Origin: Acidobacteriota bacterium
GTDB taxonomy: Bacteria > Acidobacteriota > Terriglobia > UBA7540
Reading direction: 5' to 3'
Assembly (NCBI GenBank): GCA_023474345.1
Contig: JAMCXS010000030.1
Coordinates: 1-64,000, forward strand
DNA length: 64,000 bases
Shown here piece after piece: positions 5,758-59,960 of the stretch. The position numbers and the translations under genes were made by a program. Each line of letters opens with the position of its first letter. The first letter of the stretch is position 1. The notes beneath the pieces are model-generated. The model was not told where the DNA came from, made no database searches, and was given only the letters and a program-made list of their open reading frames with translations.

Positions 5758-7938
5758 ATGCTTGGCAAGCGGATCTTACTCGCTGCGATGATCGGGCTTA
5801 GTATCACGCCTTTTTTCGCTCAAGACACGAAATACCCCCCGCAGGATGAGCAGATACCGGGACCTCCTATCTATCCTGAGAGGTCACGTTCCTGCTGCAA
5901 CGGTTTAAATCGGCAAGAGTATGCGGTCAAGGTTTTTGAGGAATGGCTTGCGGACATCAAACATTTCCGAATGGAGCGCTTGATTCGCGCGGGCTATGAT
6001 GCTGCGCAATATAGTCGGCCGGAGCTCAAGTGGACTCAAAGTTCATTTATTCAGCCGCAACTGATGATCCAAGACCGCTATTTCTATGACCCGGTTACGC
6101 ATGAATATACGGTCGGGCGGTACCTCGACGACCTGAAGAGGCGTTATGGCGGGACCGATGCCGTTCTGATCTGGCCTACTTACCCCAACCTCGGAATTGA
6201 CAATCGCAACCAGTACGATTGGCTGCGGGACATGCCGGGAGGCCTCGCAGGCGTGCGGCAAATGATCGAGGATTTTCACCGCCATGGCGTGCGGGTGCTT
6301 TTCCCGGTCATGCTCTGGGATCAGGGAACACGGGACGAAGGGATACCTAACTGGGTGGCCACCGCGCGGTTGCTCGCGAACGTCGGCGCTGATGGGGTTA
6401 ACGGTGACACGCTCCACGAAGTGCCACTGGCCTTCCGGAAAGCTTCGGATGCCACCGGCCATCCCCTCGCCTTTGAGCCGGAACTTTCGCTCGAGAATCC
6501 ATCCGAAGCCCTAGCCTGGAACAACATGAGCTGGGGCTATTGGAAGTACCCTTTTGAACCGATGGTAAGCCTTTACAAGTGGCTTGAGCCCCGGCACATG
6601 GTAAATGTTTGCGACCGCTGGGCTCGCGATAAGATCGACAATTTGCAATTTGCCTTTTTCAACGGTGTCGGCTACGAAAGCTGGGAAGACATCTGGGGCA
6701 TTTGGAATGGAATTAAGCCCCGGGACGGCGAGGCGATCCGCTGCGTGGCAACCATCGAACGCGCCTTCCCCGAACTGCTTACCAGTCGCGATTGGACGCC
6801 CCATACGCCAACCTTGCAATACGGCATCTTTGCCAGTAAATTCCCTGGAGAAAATGAAACTCTCTGGACCATTGTCAACCGCAATGAGTACGATGTTCAC
6901 GGCAAGCAGATTGAAGTTCCTTACGAGGCCGGCACTCGCTATTTTGACCTTTGGCACGGGGTTGAACTGAAGCCCGCCGTCGAGGGCAAGATGGCCGTCC
7001 TGAGTTTTGAAGTTGAGGCTCGCGGCTTTGGCGCCATTCTGGCAACGTCCCATGAAGCGGACCAGAAGCTCAGCAGACTTCTGAGCACGATGCATGAACT
7101 TTCGCAAAGGCCGCTGAGTTCTTTTACGAACCAACGGACCTTTCTTCCACAACATATCGTGGAAATCCCTCGCACTAAACCTGCCGCCAGTGCCCCGCCG
7201 TGCATGGTCCGGATTCCGGGCGGTGAGTTTGTGTTCAACGTTCATGGAATTGAAATCGAAGGCGGCAACGCCGTCGGGGTGGATGTCCAGGAGCCTTGGG
7301 AGGATTCGCCCCGGCGCTTCCATCGTCATCGGATGTACATTGACAGCTTTTACATCGACCGCTATCTAGTCACCAATGCTGCGTACAAGAAATTTCTCGC
7401 GGCCACCGATTATCACCCCGAGGATGACCACAACTTCCTGAAAGACTGGAAGGACGGCACATACCCTGAGGGTTGGGGTAACAAACCTGTAACCTGGGTT
7501 TCGCTTAAAGACGCGCGCGCCTACGCCGCGTGGGCCGGCAAGCGGTTGCCGCACGAGTGGGAATGGCAGTACGCCGCGCAGGGAACGGACGGGCGAATTT
7601 ATCCATGGGGCAACAAGTGGGACCCTGCCGCCGTGCCGAAGCTAGACACCAGACGGGATCTTCCTCCGCCAGCCGACGTTGACGCTCATCCCAAAGGCGC
7701 CAGCCCTTTTGGCGTAATGGACATGGTCGGGAACGTGTGGCAATGGACGGACGAATTTGAGGGCGCTCACACTCGTGCGGCCATTCTGCGCGGAGGCAGC
7801 CACTATCATCCGCATGGTTCAGGTTGGTATTTCCCGGAGGCGTTCCGGCTGGATGAACACGGCAAGTTCTTGCTTATGGCTCCCAGCACCGACCGCTCCG
7901 GAACCGTCGGTTTCCGATGCGCGGTGGATGCCGAATAA
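5758..7938 (+). CDS. Secreted GH-like protein fused to an FGE/SUMF1-like domain
   Basis: 726 residues from ATG 5758, which follows GAGAAGAG; an upstream ATG (5725) would spoil the signal peptide MLGKRILLAAMIGLSITPFFA. The N-terminal two thirds read like a TIM-barrel glycosidase-like domain: DAVLIWPTYPNLGIDNRNQYD, then GVRVLFPVMLWDQGTRDEG, GADGVNGDTLHE and a beta-rich end near 430. The C-terminal third (about 465-726) is an FGE-sulfatase fold: MVRIPGGEF, IDRYLVTNAAYKKFL, PVTWVSLKDARAYAAWAGKRLP, GNVWQWT, GGSHYHPHGSGWYF, GFRCAVD. The two cysteines used by true formylglycine-generating enzymes, expected just after GGS, are absent, so sulfatase activation is unlikely; such domains often bind or modify other substrates. 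A permease, a sulfatase-fold gene and a GH27 gene follow on the same strand. Substrate unknown. Confidence 0.82.
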   Translation: MLGKRILLAAMIGLSITPFFAQDTKYPPQDEQIPGPPIYPERSRSCCNGLNRQEYAVKVFEEWLADIKHFRMERLIRAGYDAAQYSRPELKWTQSSFIQPQLMIQDRYFYDPVTHEYTVGRYLDDLKRRYGGTDAVLIWPTYPNLGIDNRNQYDWLRDMPGGLAGVRQMIEDFHRHGVRVLFPVMLWDQGTRDEGIPNWVATARLLANVGADGVNGDTLHEVPLAFRKASDATGHPLAFEPELSLENPSEALAWNNMSWGYWKYPFEPMVSLYKWLEPRHMVNVCDRWARDKIDNLQFAFFNGVGYESWEDIWGIWNGIKPRDGEAIRCVATIERAFPELLTSRDWTPHTPTLQYGIFASKFPGENETLWTIVNRNEYDVHGKQIEVPYEAGTRYFDLWHGVELKPAVEGKMAVLSFEVEARGFGAILATSHEADQKLSRLLSTMHELSQRPLSSFTNQRTFLPQHIVEIPRTKPAASAPPCMVRIPGGEFVFNVHGIEIEGGNAVGVDVQEPWEDSPRRFHRHRMYIDSFYIDRYLVTNAAYKKFLAATDYHPEDDHNFLKDWKDGTYPEGWGNKPVTWVSLKDARAYAAWAGKRLPHEWEWQYAAQGTDGRIYPWGNKWDPAAVPKLDTRRDLPPPADVDAHPKGASPFGVMDMVGNVWQWTDEFEGAHTRAAILRGGSHYHPHGSGWYFPEAFRLDEHGKFLLMAPSTDRSGTVGFRCAVDAE

Positions 7939-8009
7939 TCCAAGGTAATCAGGCGCACGCGTGATGTTACGATCCGGTCGAAATCCTTACGTGACGAAGG
8001 ATGTCAACA

Positions 8010-9002
8010 ATGTTCGTGCCCACTGCCTATAGTGCTGCTCTTTTGATGATGATTCTCAGCATGGTTTGTTGGGGAAGTTGGGCCAATACTCAGAAGCTTT
8101 GCAAGAACTGGCGCTTTGAGCTCTTTTACTGCGACTACATGTGGGGCATCCTGCTGATCTCCGTATTCATGGGATTCACTCTGGGCCGAACCGATCTCGC
8201 GAGCCCGGAGAGCTTTATGGCTAACCTCGGCGCGGCGGACGTCCACCATCTGCTGCTGGCATTCCTGGGGGGAATTATCTTTAACGTCGCCAACATCCTC
8301 CTGGTGGCAGCAATCGCCATTGCGGGCTTGGCTGTCGCTTTTCCTATTGGCATTGGCCTGGCTTTGGTGATCGGGTCGGTTCTCAATTACCTCGTCACGC
8401 CGGCAGGGAACCCGGTGTTGCTGTTCAGTGGAATCTTTCTGGTTTGCGTGGCAATTGTGCTGGACGCCATGGCTTATCGGAAAGTCTCGCAGGATTTGAA
8501 GCTGAGCACCAAAGGCATTCTGTTGAGCCTGCTATGCGGCGTGGGAATGGGGCTGTTTTATCCCTTCGTCGCCAAGGCCCTGACGGGCAAAAATCACCTG
8601 GGGCCTTACACGGTGGCCTATGTTTTCGCGCTTGGCGCGCTGGCCTGCGCGCTTCCGCTCAACTATGCCATGATGCGAAAACCGGTTTCCGGTCCGCCCG
8701 TTTCGATCGTTGACTACTTGCGGGGGACCAAGTCTTTGCACTTCTGGGGTGTCCTTGGAGGAATGATCTGGGGAGTCGGAACGATTTCGAATTTTGTCGC
8801 TTCCTATGTGCGGATGGTCGGTCCCGCCACTTCCTACGGTTTGGGCCAGGGCGCTACGATGGTTTCGGCGATTTGGGGAGTATTTGTGTGGAAGGAGTTC
8901 GCTGGGGCCGACCGTAGCGCCAAGCGCCTCCTGGCGATGATGTTCGTGGTTTTCATTCTGGGACTTTCCTTGGTTGCCTTGGCGCCCGTGGTCAAGTTCT
9001 AG
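8010..9002 (+). CDS. DMT-superfamily permease, ureide-permease-like
   Basis: About 330 residues with roughly ten hydrophobic segments, starting MFVPTAYSAALLMMILSMVCWGSWANTQKL. The CWGSWANTQK motif and overall pattern match ureide-permease-like or GRP-type members of the drug/metabolite transporter superfamily. ATG 8010 has AAGGA eight bases upstream; ATG 8001, three codons earlier, sits directly on that sequence and is less likely. The neighbours suggest import of a sugar or another breakdown product. The stop codon TAG lies inside the left terminal repeat of a small repeat element (9000-9089). Confidence 0.75.
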   Translation: MFVPTAYSAALLMMILSMVCWGSWANTQKLCKNWRFELFYCDYMWGILLISVFMGFTLGRTDLASPESFMANLGAADVHHLLLAFLGGIIFNVANILLVAAIAIAGLAVAFPIGIGLALVIGSVLNYLVTPAGNPVLLFSGIFLVCVAIVLDAMAYRKVSQDLKLSTKGILLSLLCGVGMGLFYPFVAKALTGKNHLGPYTVAYVFALGALACALPLNYAMMRKPVSGPPVSIVDYLRGTKSLHFWGVLGGMIWGVGTISNFVASYVRMVGPATSYGLGQGATMVSAIWGVFVWKEFAGADRSAKRLLAMMFVVFILGLSLVALAPVVKF

Positions 9003-9089
9003 CAGGTTATTGAGAAGGTCGATGTTGTCATGCTGAGCCCCTTCGCCTTGCTCAGAATGATAAGCTCCAAAACCTTTTTCAGCAACCTG
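9000..9089. repeat. 90-bp element with terminal inverted repeats (copy 1)
   Basis: The left end TAGCAGGTTATTGAGAAGG and right end AACCTTTTTCAGCAACCTG are inverted repeats of each other with few mismatches. The interior carries a smaller inverted pair around TGCTGAGC and GCTCAGAATGA. A second element with the same ends but a different, longer interior is at 19397-19533. No ORF inside; MITE-like. Confidence 0.65.
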
Positions 9090-9212
9090 GCGGGAGAATG
9101 GAAAATTGGAACCCAAAATTCCGCGTTGCCCTTCAGCACGCGGGTCGCGCCGGGAGATGCCCCAGTTATATTATCTTGTTGCATTTATCACAGCACTGAC
9201 ACGGAGGCTCCG

Positions 9213-11111
9213 ATGAGATTGAAGTTTGGCAAATCCTTTTTGCATACCGTCATGGTCTCAGCATTTTTCTTTATCCCGAAATTAGCCCTCGCCGCACAGG
9301 GAAAAACTACCCCTCCTTATAACATCATCTTGCTTACCCCCGATCAGTTGCGGGCGGACTTCATGCACACATACGGATATCCTTATCCGGATACGCCTAA
9401 CATCGACCAGTTAGCGAGTGAAGGAACCGCCTTCACCAGGATGTATGCGGGAGCGCCGTGGACCACGCCCTCGTTCGGTGTTATTCTCACCGGTCTATTC
9501 CCAACCGTTCACGGAATGACCCTTCCTCCCTACGAGGGTTGCGGTCCTTCGATCAGCCGCCCGCTCACCAACGGCGAGATCCCGACCGTTCCGTCGCTAT
9601 TGCTGCTCTCTCCGTATAAGCTTATCATTCCCGAGGTGCTGAAGAAGGACGGCATGGTCGCGGCCGTGGACGATGCCAACTGCTGGTCCATCTGGGACGT
9701 GGTGAATCGGGGCTGGGATGATTTTAAGTTTTTCCCAGGCTACCAGTTACCGGCCCCGGGGCATCCGGGCTCGAGCAGTTTCTACTTGACGGCACCGAAG
9801 ACGACCGCCTGGGCCGAGCAGTGGCTAACGGCTCATCGCGATCAGCGGTTCTTCTTTTGGATCCATTATATGGAACCGCACGCTCCTTATAACGAGCCCG
9901 CCGCGTACGACCGCTTCAAGACTCCGGATGATTTCCCGAATGAGCCCGACGGCAGAACCCTTCATAGTCTTGCGAAGTTACAGAACATTCACGCCATCCG
10001 GCGGTTGCAAGAGCTGTATGCCGGAAAGATTTTGTACATGGACCATTTTGTTGGTCAGCTCCTCAACACTGTTCACACGCTTGGGCTCGACAAGAACACG
10101 ATCATTATTCTGACGTCTGACCACGGGCAGCTTCTTTATTCCCATCCTAAGGACTTTAATACGGACGACCATCGCTCACTTTATAACGCTGATTTACACG
10201 TCCCATTAATTTTCCGCGGGCCGGGTATCCCCTCAGGCAAAAGATTAGAAGATCTTGCAAGCAACTATGACATCTTGCCCACCATACTGGACCTGGAAAA
10301 CCTGCTGCCGCCTGCCCACACGGACGGTGTCAGCCTCAAGGGGATCATCCAGGGAACCACGTCCGAGCCTCCGAATCATTACCTTTACTGCGAAGAGAGC
10401 AATCTCACACCCCAGTACTCTATTCGAAACCTCCACTACAAGTTGATTGAGACGATGCCCACAGGAAAGATCCAATGTTTCGACGAAGCCACCGACCCGA
10501 GGGAGCTCCACAACATCTGCGCGCAGATTCCTGAGGAAGCAGCGAAATTGAAGGCGGCGCTGGACCTGCACATTCAGTTGCTCATCCGCCAGGCAAAGTC
10601 ATACCCGGACTGGCGGAACAATTTGGCGTTGGCAGTGCTCGATCAACGGGACTCGAAGGCGCTGAACATGCTTGCGCCACACCGTTTGATAGTTGCACCT
10701 ACCGGCGGATCACACTACCAACTGACTGGTCGGGCGTGGTCCATCGTCAAGGGATTGAATAAATTTGGCAATTTGGCTTATTGGGCCCCACCAGGGCCTG
10801 CCACGGCATACGTTATCTGGAGATCTGATACGCCGCTGATTGGAGAGTACGAGATCTCGGTGTGGTATGGAGGCACTGGCCAGATCGGCATGAAACAGGC
10901 CACCGATGCGGACTACACGGTTCGCTTTAAAGGAGGCTCTCTGTCTTTTCCTTTTAACCAGAACGAGGGGCAGGGAGAGTGGCATTCACTTGGTAGCTTT
11001 CATGATCCCGCCTCGGTGGAACTGACCAACCGAGCCGACGGTGCGGTGGTCGCCGGGGCCGTCCGATTTGTACGGGTTCAACAGGCGGAAGTCCGCCCGG
11101 CATCTCGCTAG
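9213..11111 (+). CDS. Secreted sulfatase-fold hydrolase with golvesin-like C-terminal domain
   Basis: 632 residues from ATG 9213, with GGAGG six bases upstream. The signal peptide ends near residue 28 (KLALAAQG). Alkaline-phosphatase superfamily, sulfatase branch: metal-site strand IILLTPDQLRADF (about 39-50), nucleophile region APWTTPSFGVILTG (81-94), and LTSDHGQL further on. In classical sulfatases the nucleophile motif is C/S-x-P-x-R; here it reads T84-T-P-S-F, so there is no residue that could become formylglycine and the Arg is replaced. Thr may be the nucleophile, as in related phosphodiesterases. Residues about 500-625 (YEISVWYGG, FNQNEGQGEWHSLGSF, AGAVRFV) look like the golvesin/Xly carbohydrate-binding-like domain. 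Could be a phosphodiesterase, phosphatase or atypical sulfatase. Linked to glycosidases. Confidence 0.82.
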   Translation: MRLKFGKSFLHTVMVSAFFFIPKLALAAQGKTTPPYNIILLTPDQLRADFMHTYGYPYPDTPNIDQLASEGTAFTRMYAGAPWTTPSFGVILTGLFPTVHGMTLPPYEGCGPSISRPLTNGEIPTVPSLLLLSPYKLIIPEVLKKDGMVAAVDDANCWSIWDVVNRGWDDFKFFPGYQLPAPGHPGSSSFYLTAPKTTAWAEQWLTAHRDQRFFFWIHYMEPHAPYNEPAAYDRFKTPDDFPNEPDGRTLHSLAKLQNIHAIRRLQELYAGKILYMDHFVGQLLNTVHTLGLDKNTIIILTSDHGQLLYSHPKDFNTDDHRSLYNADLHVPLIFRGPGIPSGKRLEDLASNYDILPTILDLENLLPPAHTDGVSLKGIIQGTTSEPPNHYLYCEESNLTPQYSIRNLHYKLIETMPTGKIQCFDEATDPRELHNICAQIPEEAAKLKAALDLHIQLLIRQAKSYPDWRNNLALAVLDQRDSKALNMLAPHRLIVAPTGGSHYQLTGRAWSIVKGLNKFGNLAYWAPPGPATAYVIWRSDTPLIGEYEISVWYGGTGQIGMKQATDADYTVRFKGGSLSFPFNQNEGQGEWHSLGSFHDPASVELTNRADGAVVAGAVRFVRVQQAEVRPASR

Positions 11112-11172
11112 GTGGTGAGTCCGCACCGGGCGTTAGTGACCGGAAAGCTTATCCCATGAGGAGGTTAAAAAC

Positions 11173-12342
11173 ATGAGGCTTCGAGCTCGGCAGGTTTGGA
11201 GTACCACCTTCCTCATGGCGGTGTTCATAGGCGTATGGGCGGGGACGCGCAGTTACGGTCAGGCGTCCCGGCTGGCTTCGACGCCGCCCATGGGTTGGAA
11301 CGATTGGTATCAGTATGGATGCACCGTTAGCGACGCCATCGTTCGGGCAAACGTTGATGTGTTGGTCAGCAGCGGAATGCGGGACGCCGGTTATAAATAT
11401 GTCAATATTGACGACTGCTGGCAGGGAAAACGTGATGCGCAGGGATTCATTCACCCGAACAGCCGCTTCCCGGATATGAAGGCACTCGCTGATTACATTC
11501 ATAGTAAAGGTTTGAAATTTGGCCTTTATTCTTCACCCGGTCCCAAAACGTGCGCGGGTTACGAAGGCAGTTATCAGTACGAGAGACGGGACGCAGAAAC
11601 TTACGCCAAGTGGGGCGTGGATTTCCTCAAGTACGATTGGTGCAGCGCCTCGAGGGTGTACGCGCCGGACCAGATGCAGGCAGCTTACAGGAAAATGCAC
11701 GAGGCGCTTGAAAGCACGGGCCGTCCGATTCTCTTCAGCCTTTGTCAGTATGGACTGGAAGGCGTGTGGCGTTGGGGAGCCTCGGTGGGCGGCAATATGT
11801 GGCGTACAACTCCTGACATCGGTGGCAATTACGACCGCGTTTCTTTATTCGGGTTTATGCAGAATGGGCTAGAGACGTATACTGGTCCCGGGCATTGGAA
11901 CGATCCGGACATTCTGCAGATCGGTCTGGGCAGGCTCAATCACGACGAAGAGCTCACGCAAATGAGTTTATGGTGCTTGCTTGCCGCTCCCCTTCTGGCC
12001 GGAAACAACTTGACCAAAATGAGCAACGACACTCTCAAAATCCTGACTAATCCGGAAGTTATTGCAGTGGATCAGGATCCTGAGGGGATTGAGGGGCATC
12101 GCGTCTGGCAGGAAGGGCCTCTGGAAGTTTGGGTCAAGCCGCTTTCGGACCGCAGCATGGTGGTAGGCTTGTTTAACCGGAGCGAGTCGCCTCTGCCGAT
12201 TACCGTGAGGTTCAAAGCGATCCGCATGAAAGACAACGTCCGAGTCCGTGACCTTTGGGCGCGAAAGGACCTAGGCGACTTCCACGGGCATTACACTGCC
12301 AAAGTTCCGCGCCATGGCGTTGTGCTGCTTAAGTTGGAATGA
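11173..12342 (+). CDS. GH27 alpha-galactosidase, secreted
   Basis: 389 residues with AGGAGG nine bases before ATG 11173 and a signal peptide ending near SYGQA (residue 31). Glycoside hydrolase family 27, a retaining clan GH-D enzyme that removes terminal alpha-galactosyl (or related) residues. Motifs: TPPMGWNDW (38-45), NIDDCWQ (78-84), nucleophile Asp155 in FLKYDWC, acid/base Asp215 in WRTTPDIGGNYD, then PGHWNDPDILQIG. A C-terminal beta-sandwich ends the protein. Length matches single-domain GH27 enzymes. It follows the sulfatase-fold gene by 62 bases and precedes a RhaT-like transporter by 61 bases on the same strand, so a shared transcript is likely. GH27 also includes beta-L-arabinopyranosidases; the exact sugar is not certain. 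Confidence 0.93.
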   Translation: MRLRARQVWSTTFLMAVFIGVWAGTRSYGQASRLASTPPMGWNDWYQYGCTVSDAIVRANVDVLVSSGMRDAGYKYVNIDDCWQGKRDAQGFIHPNSRFPDMKALADYIHSKGLKFGLYSSPGPKTCAGYEGSYQYERRDAETYAKWGVDFLKYDWCSASRVYAPDQMQAAYRKMHEALESTGRPILFSLCQYGLEGVWRWGASVGGNMWRTTPDIGGNYDRVSLFGFMQNGLETYTGPGHWNDPDILQIGLGRLNHDEELTQMSLWCLLAAPLLAGNNLTKMSNDTLKILTNPEVIAVDQDPEGIEGHRVWQEGPLEVWVKPLSDRSMVVGLFNRSESPLPITVRFKAIRMKDNVRVRDLWARKDLGDFHGHYTAKVPRHGVVLLKLE

Positions 12343-54456: not shown

Positions 54457-57400
54457 ATGTTGTTGAACGTTTTAGGGTTTCTCTTAGAGTGGAGCCGGAC
54501 GGTTGAATGGGCAAGAGTTCTTCTTCGTGTCTTCTGGGCAAGCTTGCTCATCCTGACCGTAGGGGTGCTCAGTGTGCGACCGGCCGTGAGTTTGAGGCAT
54601 GCGGCAGAATCAAACGCAATGGGCCGCTATGGTTCGCTGCCGCTCGTCTTCGAACTGAACCGGGGTCAGGCTGACCCGAGTGTCAAATTTCTGGCGCGCG
54701 GGAACGCCTCCACAGCTTTTCTTAATGCCAGAAGTATCCTCATCGCGCTGCGCCGAAGCAAGGCAAGTGTCAACGACGTGTTCGCGCCCCGGGAACTCCC
54801 TTCGTTCACCAGGTCTCGTGTGATAACGTGCACCGCTTTCGTCCGGGTTGGCCTGGTGGGAGCGAGCGCCTTGTCCCGTGCCGAAGGGATCGATCCCTTG
54901 GCAGGCAAGAGCAATTATTTTATTGGCAATGATCCCGCCAAATGGATCAAGAACGTCCCCACCTATGCCAAAGTGGAGTTTCCAGGGGTATATCCGGGGA
55001 TCGACGCCGTATATTACGGCAATCGGCGCAAGCTGGAGTTCGATTTCATCGTGTTCCCTGGAGCGAACCCTCGGGCGATCCGCTTGAAAATCATCGGAAA
55101 GACTACCCGTGCCAGTTTGCATGTTGATCAAACCGGAGACCTCGTGGTGCACACAGCGGCGGGCGACATACGCTTTCAGAAGCCTCGTGCCTACCAGATG
55201 GAGGGGACTCTGCAGAGCGGAGCGAAGCGGCTTGTGCAATCTCGCTACGTGGTCGAAAAGGACGGAACGGTCAGCTTCAATGTGGGCGACTACGACCGTA
55301 CGAAATCACTAACCATCGACCCGGTCCTGAGTTACTCGACTTACCTCGGTGGGAACGATCTCAATTACGCTTCTGGAATTGCCGTCGATGGGTCGGGCGA
55401 GACTTACATCACTGGCTATACGTCCTCAACGGACTTTCCGGTCGAGGGCGGGGTCCAGGACAATTTCTCGGGAGGCAGTTGCGATACAGATGTTAACACC
55501 TCTCCCTGTTTTGATGCCTTCGTGGCCAAGCTCAATCCCCAAGGTTCGGGACTTTTGTACTCCACTTACCTTGGAGGGACCGGCGACGATCGTGGAATTC
55601 GTATTGCTGTCGATGCCGCCGGAGAAGCCTACGTGGCTGGATTTACCGATTCGCTCGATTTTCCTGCGGCGAGCGCTTTTCAGGGTTCTCCCGGCGGGGG
55701 CAGTTGCGGTACGACGGCCTATCCATGCCCCTGCTTTGATGCGTTTGTTGCCAAGCTCAGCGCGTCCGGATCAAACTTGATATACGCAAGCTACTTGGGA
55801 GGGACGGGAGATGATTTTGCAAGCGATATTGCCGTGGATTCGGGCGGTAATGCCTACGTTGCCGGTTTCACATCCGCGGCAAATTTTCCCACCACTCACG
55901 GGGCACTGCAAACAAGCTTCGGAGGCGGACCGTTTGACGGCTTCATTACCAAGATTGGCCCCGCGGGCACGGCGCTGGTCTACTCGACCTACCTGGGCGG
56001 TAGCGGCGAAGATCATGTTGCGGCCATCGCGCTGGATGCTTCCGGCAACGCGTATTTGACAGGACAAACGAATTCAGCGAATTTCCCCACCGAAGGCGCG
56101 TTCCAGCCAAGTTACACTGCAACAACATGCGGTTCGGCGTTGAACAGCTTTCCCTGTTTTGAGGCCTTTGTCAGCAAATTAAATCCTGCCGGCACTGCCT
56201 TAATTTATTCGTCCTATTTGGGTGGGACCGCAGCAAGCTACGGCAACGGCATTGGTCTCGATACCTCCTGGAATGCTTACGTGACGGGTTGGACGACTTC
56301 AAAGGATTTTCCTGTCACCCCTTCAGCCTATGAAACGGCGTACAACGGATCGGACGAGGCTTTTGTTGCTAAAGTCACTCCTGCCGGCGACGCACTTGCG
56401 TACGCGACCTATCTTGGTGGCAGCAACCCTGATGTCGCTAATGCCGTTGCCGTCGATGCTACAGGCAACGCTTATATTGTCGGTTATGCTTACGGCGGAG
56501 GGTTTCCCGTTGTTTTGCCGCTCCAGATGAATAGCGGGGGCTTTTACGACGCCATCGTGACCGAGTTGAACGCGGCTGGTTCTGACCTTATCTCTTCGAC
56601 ATACTTGGGCGGGACGGGCGACGATTACGCCAACGATGTCGCCCTGGACGCTTCCGGCAACCTCTATGTCGCCGGCGACACTTTCTCAGCAGATTTTCCG
56701 ACTACACCGTCGGTTTTTACTACCGCTTACACCGGTGGGTCCTATGATGCCTGGATTGCAAAAATCAGTTCCCAGAACGCGCCGGGTCTGACCGCGGGTC
56801 CCAACCCTCTGGTTTTTTCCGGCCAGGAAGTTAACACCACCAGCGCTCCCTTAGTACTGAAGCTCGGAGATGCCGGCAGCGCGCCGCTGGGAATTTCAAA
56901 CATTGTGGTGGCGGGCGATTTTGCTCAAAAGAACAATTGTGGGGGGACGGTCGCGGCGGGCACAGCCTGTTCCATGAGTGTTACGTTCACTCCATCTGCG
57001 GCAGGCGTACGGACAGGCACGGTGACCTTTACGGATACCGCGGCCGGTAGCCCGCAGACGGTTAAGCTGACCGGCTACGGCACAAGCGGCGCGGTCAGCC
57101 TCTCCGCCAACAGCTTGGACTTCGGGTCGGTCACGATTGGAACAACCAGTGCGACTCAATCGGTGACATTGACGAACGTGGCGCAGTCACCGCTTGATAT
57201 CTCCAATATCCAAGCTGAAGGCGAGTACAGTGAGTCCAATACCTGTGGCAGCGTGGTTAACCCGGGCAGCGGTTGCACCATTACAATTACTTTTTCCCCC
57301 ACCTCTACGGGAACCATCGTCGGATCGGTGATGATCACCGATTCCGCCACCGACAGTCCGCAGACGATTGTTTTGACAGGAAGCGGTGCTTTGCCTTTTA

Positions 57401-58302
57401 CACTTACGGCGCAGCCGGCCTCGGTGAGCGTTCTGGAGGGAACCGACCAGGTCGAGTTTACGGTGTCCGCCTCAGCGACCGCCGGGTTTACGGGGTCGAT
57501 CGCTCTCGGCTGCTCAGACATTGCGCCGGCAACGTGTTCCTTTGACCCGGCAACGATTACGCCGGGAGGGGCCAGCACGCTTACGGTGGGAAATCTCAAT
57601 CAGGTGACCTCAACGTCACTCAGTTTTGCCGTGACAGGAACCATCGCTCAAACTTATAGCCCACTTACTTCCACGTCTGGCACAGCCTCGACAACAAACG
57701 GCACAACCACAGCAACACTGCCTCTTACAGTGAATTTTGAGGATTTCACGATTTCGGCTTCACCTTCTCAAGATTCAATCGGAGCGGGCCAGACGGCGAG
57801 CTATACGCTTACCCTTGCGCCGGTCAATGGATTCAACTTACCGGTGGAACTGGCGTGTGCGGGAGCTCCGCCCCAGGCTACCTGCACCCTTTCGCCCTCC
57901 TCGGTGAACATGGATGGTTCGACGCCGGCGAAGGTTACGCTGCAGCTTGCGACCACCGCACGATCCCTTGTTGAACCTCCTCCGGGCGTCTGGCTGTTTC
58001 CATGGGGTAGCCGCTGTTTGTGGTTGTTTGGCCTGTGGGGCTGGTGTGTTTTGGCAACCTTGGCTCGATTCGGAACCCGTAAACGGCAATCAGGAACCTG
58101 GTCGCCGATCAGAGGCGCAGGGTTGATGGTTCTAGTTTGCTTGTTGACGGCGTCATGTGGCGGGGGGGCGGGGGGCGGTGGCGTTGGTGCCGCGCCAGCG
58201 CCAAAAGAGCAGGGCACTCCTGCCGGGACTTATACATTGACTATAACCGCCACGGCAAAATCATTGAGCCACAGCGGGACGGTCACGTTAAGAGTCAATT
58301 GA
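54457..58302 (+). CDS. Large secreted SBBP-repeat protein with Ig-like domains and an internal membrane/CGGG insert
   Basis: 1281 residues from ATG 54457. Hydrophobic leader (FWASLLILTVGVLSVRPAVS), then a conserved N-terminal domain (YGSLPLVFELNRGQADP, KSNYFIGNDPAKW, PGVYPGIDAVYYGNRRKLEF). Seven SBBP units (YSTYLGG...GNAYVAGFT...FP) lie at about 290-770 and should form a beta-propeller. Two choice-of-anchor/ASPM-SPD2-Hydin-like domains (about 775-985) follow, then Ig-like domains. Near 1170-1250 an insert holds WLFPWGSRCLWLFGLWGWCVL, a basic run, and LVCLLTASCGGGAGGGG, after which the Ig-like sheet resumes (GTYTLTITATAKSLSHSGTV). Probably surface-exposed; function unknown. Confidence 0.88.
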   Translation: MLLNVLGFLLEWSRTVEWARVLLRVFWASLLILTVGVLSVRPAVSLRHAAESNAMGRYGSLPLVFELNRGQADPSVKFLARGNASTAFLNARSILIALRRSKASVNDVFAPRELPSFTRSRVITCTAFVRVGLVGASALSRAEGIDPLAGKSNYFIGNDPAKWIKNVPTYAKVEFPGVYPGIDAVYYGNRRKLEFDFIVFPGANPRAIRLKIIGKTTRASLHVDQTGDLVVHTAAGDIRFQKPRAYQMEGTLQSGAKRLVQSRYVVEKDGTVSFNVGDYDRTKSLTIDPVLSYSTYLGGNDLNYASGIAVDGSGETYITGYTSSTDFPVEGGVQDNFSGGSCDTDVNTSPCFDAFVAKLNPQGSGLLYSTYLGGTGDDRGIRIAVDAAGEAYVAGFTDSLDFPAASAFQGSPGGGSCGTTAYPCPCFDAFVAKLSASGSNLIYASYLGGTGDDFASDIAVDSGGNAYVAGFTSAANFPTTHGALQTSFGGGPFDGFITKIGPAGTALVYSTYLGGSGEDHVAAIALDASGNAYLTGQTNSANFPTEGAFQPSYTATTCGSALNSFPCFEAFVSKLNPAGTALIYSSYLGGTAASYGNGIGLDTSWNAYVTGWTTSKDFPVTPSAYETAYNGSDEAFVAKVTPAGDALAYATYLGGSNPDVANAVAVDATGNAYIVGYAYGGGFPVVLPLQMNSGGFYDAIVTELNAAGSDLISSTYLGGTGDDYANDVALDASGNLYVAGDTFSADFPTTPSVFTTAYTGGSYDAWIAKISSQNAPGLTAGPNPLVFSGQEVNTTSAPLVLKLGDAGSAPLGISNIVVAGDFAQKNNCGGTVAAGTACSMSVTFTPSAAGVRTGTVTFTDTAAGSPQTVKLTGYGTSGAVSLSANSLDFGSVTIGTTSATQSVTLTNVAQSPLDISNIQAEGEYSESNTCGSVVNPGSGCTITITFSPTSTGTIVGSVMITDSATDSPQTIVLTGSGALPFTLTAQPASVSVLEGTDQVEFTVSASATAGFTGSIALGCSDIAPATCSFDPATITPGGASTLTVGNLNQVTSTSLSFAVTGTIAQTYSPLTSTSGTASTTNGTTTATLPLTVNFEDFTISASPSQDSIGAGQTASYTLTLAPVNGFNLPVELACAGAPPQATCTLSPSSVNMDGSTPAKVTLQLATTARSLVEPPPGVWLFPWGSRCLWLFGLWGWCVLATLARFGTRKRQSGTWSPIRGAGLMVLVCLLTASCGGGAGGGGVGAAPAPKEQGTPAGTYTLTITATAKSLSHSGTVTLRVN

Positions 58303-58495
58303 GCCGGCGAGAAGAATCGCCGCGCCTGTCTCGACCGCAGAATCGGACAGCGAGGAGAGCCGCTGTGGCCAGGTCTCAACGGGAAGTAATCTACAGGCCA
58401 GTCTCCGATTTCATAAAGATGTCGGGCACAGCACGTTGAAGTCGGCACGAAAAAGACCGATATACATTTGGTAGCTGCCAAGAGGAACAACACGC

Positions 58496-58772
58496 ATGTT
58501 CTGGCGAAAATCGAGAAAACTCGTCGGCCTCGATGCCGGCTACGGGTTTTGGGGTCTTTATGATCTCCAACCTGAGCGCGAATTATGCGATCAATGCGGT
58601 GATTGCGGCGGCAGAAACGCGTGACGAGGCCAAGACAATTTCGCGCCCGTCAATCGTGACCCAGAACAACGTCGAGGGGACGGTGGTGCAAGGAGGACAG
58701 ATCCCCATTCAGACCACCATCAACAACACGATCAGCGCTCAATTTGTGATTCCCAAGGTACTGCCCACCTAG
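58496..58772 (+). pseudogene. Deletion scar joining the start of pilM to an internal piece of pilQ
   Basis: ATG 58496, with AGAGGAAC upstream, begins MFWRKSRKLVGLDAG, the typical start of the type IV pilus protein PilM, and then loses similarity. From about 58545, in another frame (that of ATG 58533), the sequence reads NLSANYAINAVIAAAETRDE and TISRPSIVTQNNVEGTVVQG with IPIQTTINNTISAQFV, a segment of a PilQ/GspD-type secretin. It then ends in unrelated residues and a stop at 58772. This looks like the two edges of a pilMNOPQ operon brought together by deletion, with the 3' end of pilQ also lost. Not expected to make a working protein. Confidence 0.78.
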
Positions 58773-58820
58773 CCCACTCCGGTTCGGCTTTAATCGTTGA
58801 ACTGTAGTAGAATCATTTAG

Positions 58821-58848
58821 AGGAGGAGGCAATGGCTTCCTCCTTTTT
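58821..58848 (+). terminator. Rho-independent terminator
   Basis: AGGAGGA pairs perfectly with TCCTCCT across a 10-base inner part, followed by five T residues. It sits 48 bases after the stop of the pilM/pilQ scar and just before the M24 peptidase gene; it may be the original terminator of the lost pil operon. Confidence 0.6.
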
Positions 58849-58859
58849 GTTTAAAGGCT

Positions 58860-59960
58860 ATGGCACAGGAAACCCATTCTCAATATTTCACGCTCAGACG
58901 CGAACGTCTTCTGGCGCAGCTTGAGGCACGGAAGCTCGCAGGCCTTTTGGTTACCAACCTGACCAATATCTTTTACTTAACCGGCTTCAGGGGAAGCGCT
59001 GGCGTGGCGCTGATAGGACCCTCGCGAAGCGTCCTTTGGGTAGATCCTCGCTATACCCTCCAGGCTCGCGAACAGGCGCAGGGCCTTGAGGTTAGGGAGG
59101 CAAAAGGAATCCTTGCTGAGGAGGCTGTTCGGTGGATTCGGAGGAAACGGCTTCACCGGGTGGGCTACGAAGACTCGACTCTCACCTGCCGAGAATTCTC
59201 TTTTCTTAAGCGGGAAGGTGGGCGCGAGCTTCGCTGGGTGCCGGCGGGTGGAGTGGTAGAAGACCTGCGAGTTGTGAAAGATGCCGAGGAGATCAACTCG
59301 ATTCGGAAGGCATGCCAGCTCACTGCGGAGGTTTTTGAGGAGGTGCGGCAAGAGATTCGACCGGGGATTCGAGAAGGTGACTTAGCGGCCGAAATCGAAT
59401 ATCGTATAAAGCGAAAGGGCGCCGAAGGGCTCGCTTTTGACACAATCGTGTGTTCGGGCAAGCGGAGTGCTTGGCCGCATGCTCGTCCTTCCGCCAAGTT
59501 ATTGGAGAAAAGCAACTTGGTAATCGTTGATCTCGGTGCTATACTTGGCGGATATGCAGCTGACATGACGCGAACCGTATACTTGGGAACCCCGGGACCG
59601 CGTGTCCGCAGGCTGTACGATGCTGTCCGGGACGCCCAGGAACAAGCGGTCGCAGCCGTTCGTGCCGGGAAGCGGGCGTGCGATATTGACCGAGTGGCAC
59701 GGAAGGTCCTGGAGCGTAGGAAGTTGGACAATTATTTTACTCATAGCACGGGACACGGTGTGGGACTGGAGATCCACGAGAGGCCACGGCTGGGGCGCAG
59801 CGACAAGACCCGCTTGGAAGACGGGTGCGTTATAACGGTTGAGCCAGGAGTGTACCTTGAAGGATTCGGGGGAGTCCGTGTTGAAGACACGGTCTTGGTG
59901 ACAGCCGGGATGTCTGAAGTGCTTACGCCGGCTGCAAAAGATATTTGGTTTACCAGTTAG
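58860..59960 (+). CDS. M24 family Xaa-Pro aminopeptidase
   Basis: 366 residues from ATG 58860. Creatinase-like N-domain (about 1-130: NLTNIFYLTGFRGSAGVALIG) and pita-bread catalytic domain with metal ligands in VDLGAILGGYAADMTRTV, HGVGLEIHERP, VEPGVYLEGFGGVRVEDTVL. Cytoplasmic peptidase releasing residues N-terminal to proline. Length typical of the short PepQ/PepP-like bacterial forms. Twenty bases before accB; in many bacteria this peptidase gene precedes accBC or efp. Confidence 0.95.
   Translation: MAQETHSQYFTLRRERLLAQLEARKLAGLLVTNLTNIFYLTGFRGSAGVALIGPSRSVLWVDPRYTLQAREQAQGLEVREAKGILAEEAVRWIRRKRLHRVGYEDSTLTCREFSFLKREGGRELRWVPAGGVVEDLRVVKDAEEINSIRKACQLTAEVFEEVRQEIRPGIREGDLAAEIEYRIKRKGAEGLAFDTIVCSGKRSAWPHARPSAKLLEKSNLVIVDLGAILGGYAADMTRTVYLGTPGPRVRRLYDAVRDAQEQAVAAVRAGKRACDIDRVARKVLERRKLDNYFTHSTGHGVGLEIHERPRLGRSDKTRLEDGCVITVEPGVYLEGFGGVRVEDTVLVTAGMSEVLTPAAKDIWFTS

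Follow-up and report, generated by a model that had tools for sequence, protein, structure and literature searches.

The operon pilMNOPQ encodes the alignment subcomplex and the outer-membrane secretin of the type IV pilus, with PilM (PF11104), PilN (PF05137), PilO (PF04350) and the PilQ secretin (PF00263) as recognizable protein families. Reductive genome evolution is known to proceed with a deletional bias, leaving deletion scars and pseudogenes. Decay of type IV pilus genes was reported in subsets of closely related Francisella tularensis strains, involving a premature stop in pilT and, in another pilus gene, a frameshift together with a large internal deletion (PMC2682660). A literature search on pilMNOPQ in Acidobacteria returned no paper. 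The locus described here resembles the Francisella case in that pilus genes are decaying; there, single genes are affected, whereas here a five-gene operon has been removed and a second locus fused. It also resembles the scars of reductive evolution (operon fragments between intact neighbours, repeat-free joins and an excess of replacement changes) and does not differ from them in kind, being a genuine deletion scar produced by ordinary gene loss; the lineage is a largely uncultured environmental one and not a symbiont or pathogen.

The window, the whole 64,000-nucleotide stretch analysed, is contig C22 of metagenome bin G000 (1.98 Mb in 33 contigs, 75% complete, contamination estimate 0.49%). 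With a probability of about 0.9, its positions 58496-58772 are what two separate deletions and decay have left of a complete pilMNOPQ operon. The region was compared with G001, the only other genome of the same genus (contig C407; coordinates are those of the reverse complement of locus L035), and is laid out as follows.

54457-58302, + strand: left neighbour, an intact gene for a 1281-aa repeat protein (blastn 74% over 3.9 kb, same order as in G001)
58409-58473, + strand: stretch similar to sequence before G001 pilM (blastn to L035 5533-5597, 80% over 65 nt), probably the remains of the operon leader or promoter
58496-58534, + strand: pilM remnant, ATG and codons 1-13 (MFWRKSRKLVGLD), agreeing with the 5' end of G001 pilM at 31 of 38 nt
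58535-58535, + strand: deletion join 1, a single unassigned base, where about 4.4 kb is absent (the rest of pilM, pilN, pilO, pilP and the first part of pilQ)
58536-58742, + strand: pilQ remnant, 69 codons near the start of the secretin domain (Pfam Secretin positions 1-41), 82% amino acid identity to PilQ of G001, G011 and G007
58743-58772, + strand: pilQ end beyond deletion join 2, its nine final codons and stop (FVIPKVLPT), by blastn to the end of G001 pilQ
58819-58850, + strand: intrinsic-terminator-like hairpin (58819-58846) and T tail just before the next gene (pattern scan)
58860-59960, + strand: right neighbour, an intact M24 peptidase gene (pepP-like; Pfam Peptidase_M24, E 4e-72)

The initial annotation had read this region as a PilM-like N-terminus running into a secretin segment in another frame, and the comparison with relatives bears out both parts. 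The pilM piece MFWRKSRKLVGLD corresponds to MFWRKPRKLVGLDIGSS at the G001 pilM start (E 0.0065), the best other site for it on either strand of the 12-kb G001 locus reaching 20/38. The pilQ piece, which reads PATGFGVFMISNLSANYAINAVIAAAETRDEAKTISRPSIVTQNNVEGTVVQGGQIPIQTTINNTISAQ, has an intact reading frame different from that of the pilM piece, matches PilQ of G001, G011 and G007 with E of about 1e-29, and clears the Pfam Secretin cut-off (E 1.2e-6). Judged from these alignments, chance similarity of the pieces to pilM and pilQ is excluded. Of the two domains by which an intact pilMNOPQ would be recognized, a full PilM (PF11104) and a full secretin domain (PF00263, 169 positions), the scar retains only secretin positions 1-41, and because join 1 shifts the frame, neither PilM nor PilQ can be produced. 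The last nine pilQ codons, which end in FVTPKILPT before the stop in G001, had gone unremarked in the initial annotation; they lie beyond a second join (58742/58743), across which the frame is kept.

The intact operon of G001 is syntenic with the scar, behind the same left neighbour, and comprises the following genes.

6005-7060: pilM
7057-7665: pilN
7681-8304: pilO
8320-8889: gene at the pilP position, without a Pfam match
8886-10958: pilQ

All three pieces of the scar align in order, collinear with G001 pilM and pilQ. Relative to G001, deletion 1 removed 4,369 bp, from pilM codon 13 to the middle of pilQ (4,410-4,421 bp when measured on G011, G029 and G024), and deletion 2 removed 309 bp in frame within the secretin domain, a length identical in G001, G011, G029 and G024. 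Subtracting both from the 4,954 nt of the G001 operon gives the 277 bp of the scar to within one base, an operon of about 5,000 bases having shrunk to 277, with 94% gone and no functional product left. Alignment with an intact operon of a close relative, the check proposed at the outset, thus upholds the loss from the pilM start to the pilQ interior, and replaces the single large deletion first suggested with two. Just before pilM (5793-5942), G001 alone has a small helix-turn-helix gene, which is absent from the window and from the loci of six other relatives. A third deletion upstream of pilM, by which the window would have lost this gene, was considered and dropped, an insertion in G001 being more likely given the presence of the gene in that genome only. 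G001 also has an IS200-type-like transposase gene directly after pilQ (11077-11505), where relatives have pepP.

The neighbours of the scar are conserved on both sides. The pepP gene lies directly 3' of pilQ in six more distant relatives, as it does at the scar, and accB and then accC follow the pepP-like gene downstream. The suggestion that the terminator marks the old operon end also holds up, in that a similar hairpin with a T run after it is found between pilQ and pepP in G007, G011, G023, G028 and G029. Because its counterparts have this position in five relatives, the hairpin at 58819-58846 is supported as the putative old operon end, though it may instead belong to the leader of pepP. 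A conserved GTAGTAGAATC motif, resembling a promoter -10 element, is present directly before the hairpin (58800-58850) in the window, G011 and G024, with a variant in G029; if this is a -10 element, the hairpin would stand at the very 5' end of the pepP transcript. Rfam gave zero matches in the scar region.

The short direct repeats that the initial annotation proposed to look for at the junction were found at neither join in comparison with the sequence of relatives. No more than one to a few bp align at the joins themselves; within 30 bp of them, the longest words in common are 4-9 bp in all relatives tested, and these do not coincide with the joins. Both deletions thus probably arose by repeat-independent (illegitimate) joining, and would be recent, on the branch leading to the present species. 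To create such joins unaided, a de Bruijn assembler would have to find shared words of at least about 21 bases. Since the joins have no words of this length, reads carrying both of them probably exist, and it is very unlikely that an intact operon lost about 4.7 kb in assembly. The presence of at least one probable foreign contig (C26) in the bin and the little decay of the pilQ piece count in favour of such an artefact, but two independent joins with shared words of at most 9 bp within 30 bp offer a word-based assembler nothing to collapse, the pilQ piece has an excess of private replacement changes, and no stray contig with pilM, pilO or pilQ was found in the bin.

These private changes were counted at codon positions 1+2 versus 3, giving 6:1 for the pilQ piece and 5:13 for seven other genomes together (Fisher p 0.02), a ratio that points weakly to relaxed constraint, as in a deletion scar, the test being weak with 69 codons only. 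The dN between the pilQ piece and G001 is 0.082, compared with 0.043-0.071 between G001 and its G011-type relatives, and third-position divergence of the piece from relatives is normal. From these patterns, the pilQ piece appears to have evolved as a gene until recently. That the remnant now serves as a new small, translated and selected gene, either as a 79-aa frame (58533-58772) or as a 42-aa frame from the pilM start, is extremely improbable. The pilQ frame is open as far as the native stop and its dN/dS to G001 is 0.05, but such a low value is expected after a recent deletion, because most of the divergence is older than the deletion; moreover, the private changes tend towards replacement sites, the start codon at 58533 (ATG) sits at the join and is without an equivalent in the G001 parent, and the piece lacks both the rest of the secretin domain and a signal peptide.

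Read as the scar of a deleted operon, the locus raises the question of whether the bin encodes pilMNOPQ elsewhere. The search for another pil set, also proposed initially, turned up no second pilMNOPQ in the 75% complete bin: the PilM profile had no match, PilO was not found, and neither a second PilQ secretin nor a duplicate of the scar region was found, the secretins of the bin being the scar piece and a Tad secretin on contig C7. Another set could be missing from the assembly at this completeness. In the family, the PilM profile matched in 38 of 39 genomes, G000 being the sole genome without a match, although two of the 38 (G016 and G032) have weak matches only, probably to FtsA-like proteins; full-length PilM (1-340) is present at about one copy per genome.

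A further pilus locus, pilB-pilT-pilC-pilS-pilR-pilA, is present twice in the bin, intact on C26 (24.5 kb) and damaged on C11 (compared as C26:1-18000, L058; C11:25001-45000, L059; C12:72094-74957, L089). On C11 (33990-34920; L059:8990-9920), a frameshifted N-terminal part of pilT runs into the second half of pilC, a fusion that lies next to an intact pilB. The pilC remnant contains a stop and is heavily decayed: its dN to C26 is 0.24, compared with 0.04 between C26 and G001, and pilC private changes at positions 1+2 number 46 in C11 and 2 in C26. Counts of unique changes in C11 pilT were left out owing to cross-matches to pilB. The C11 genes pilB, pilS, pilR and pilA are open and apparently constrained (dN/dS 0.03-0.10). 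Because the pilT-pilC locus is broken in the same way as pilMNOPQ, the lineage would seem to be in the process of losing its type IV pilus, and pilus loss is likely. If C11 and C22 belong together, as their binning and parallel damage suggest, two type IV pilus loci are broken in this lineage.

It is unlikely, in turn, that the scar is real while the pilus is kept, with intact pilB, pilT and pilC supplied by C26 and another pilMNOPQ located in the quarter of the genome missing from the assembly. The incompleteness of the bin leaves room for such an operon, and C26 is in the bin, where the pilB tree places it beside C11 as its sister (0.99). However, the pil part of C26 lines up collinearly with some 20 kb of C11 at about 80%, and C12 carries a duplicate, at 82%, of the thrC-thrB end that makes up the remainder of C26, while the rarity of more than one full-length PilM per family genome also argues against a second operon. 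Given that nearly the whole of C26 has a duplicate at about 80% on other contigs of the bin, this contig is, by sequence comparison, most likely a stray contig of a sister species, which explains both duplications better than two fused segmental duplications. The contamination estimate of 0.49% may miss C26, and composition (tetranucleotides, codon usage) could not separate C11 from C26. The few pilus genes in such a bin should not be taken to indicate a working pilus, above all where a contig that is probably stray carries the intact copies.

Loss of the pilus is the likely reading of both scars, but two observations count against it. The pilQ piece is less decayed than C11 pilC, so either one loss is older than the other or C22 and C11 derive from different organisms, and the constrained C11 pilB, pilS, pilR and pilA fit poorly with an old and complete pilus loss. 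This constraint may reflect a lag, trans-complementation by unassembled genes, or another use; that PilB, PilA and the regulators PilS-PilR are kept under selection for a use without the type IV pilus machine, the scaffold, secretin, platform protein PilC and retraction motor PilT being gone, is a very improbable form of the last. These retained genes are the only part of specialist interest. The scar itself is of modest interest, in that nearly all other sequenced relatives in the family retain the operon, and, taken with C11, it gives two separate scarred loci that document how one species has likely lost an appendage found almost universally.

C7 carries the only full secretin in the bin, a Tad one, and the Tad genes there are open. 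They form an apparently intact Tad pilus locus (C7:44000-55096, L060), with an RcpA-type secretin, CpaE, TadA, TadB and TadC.
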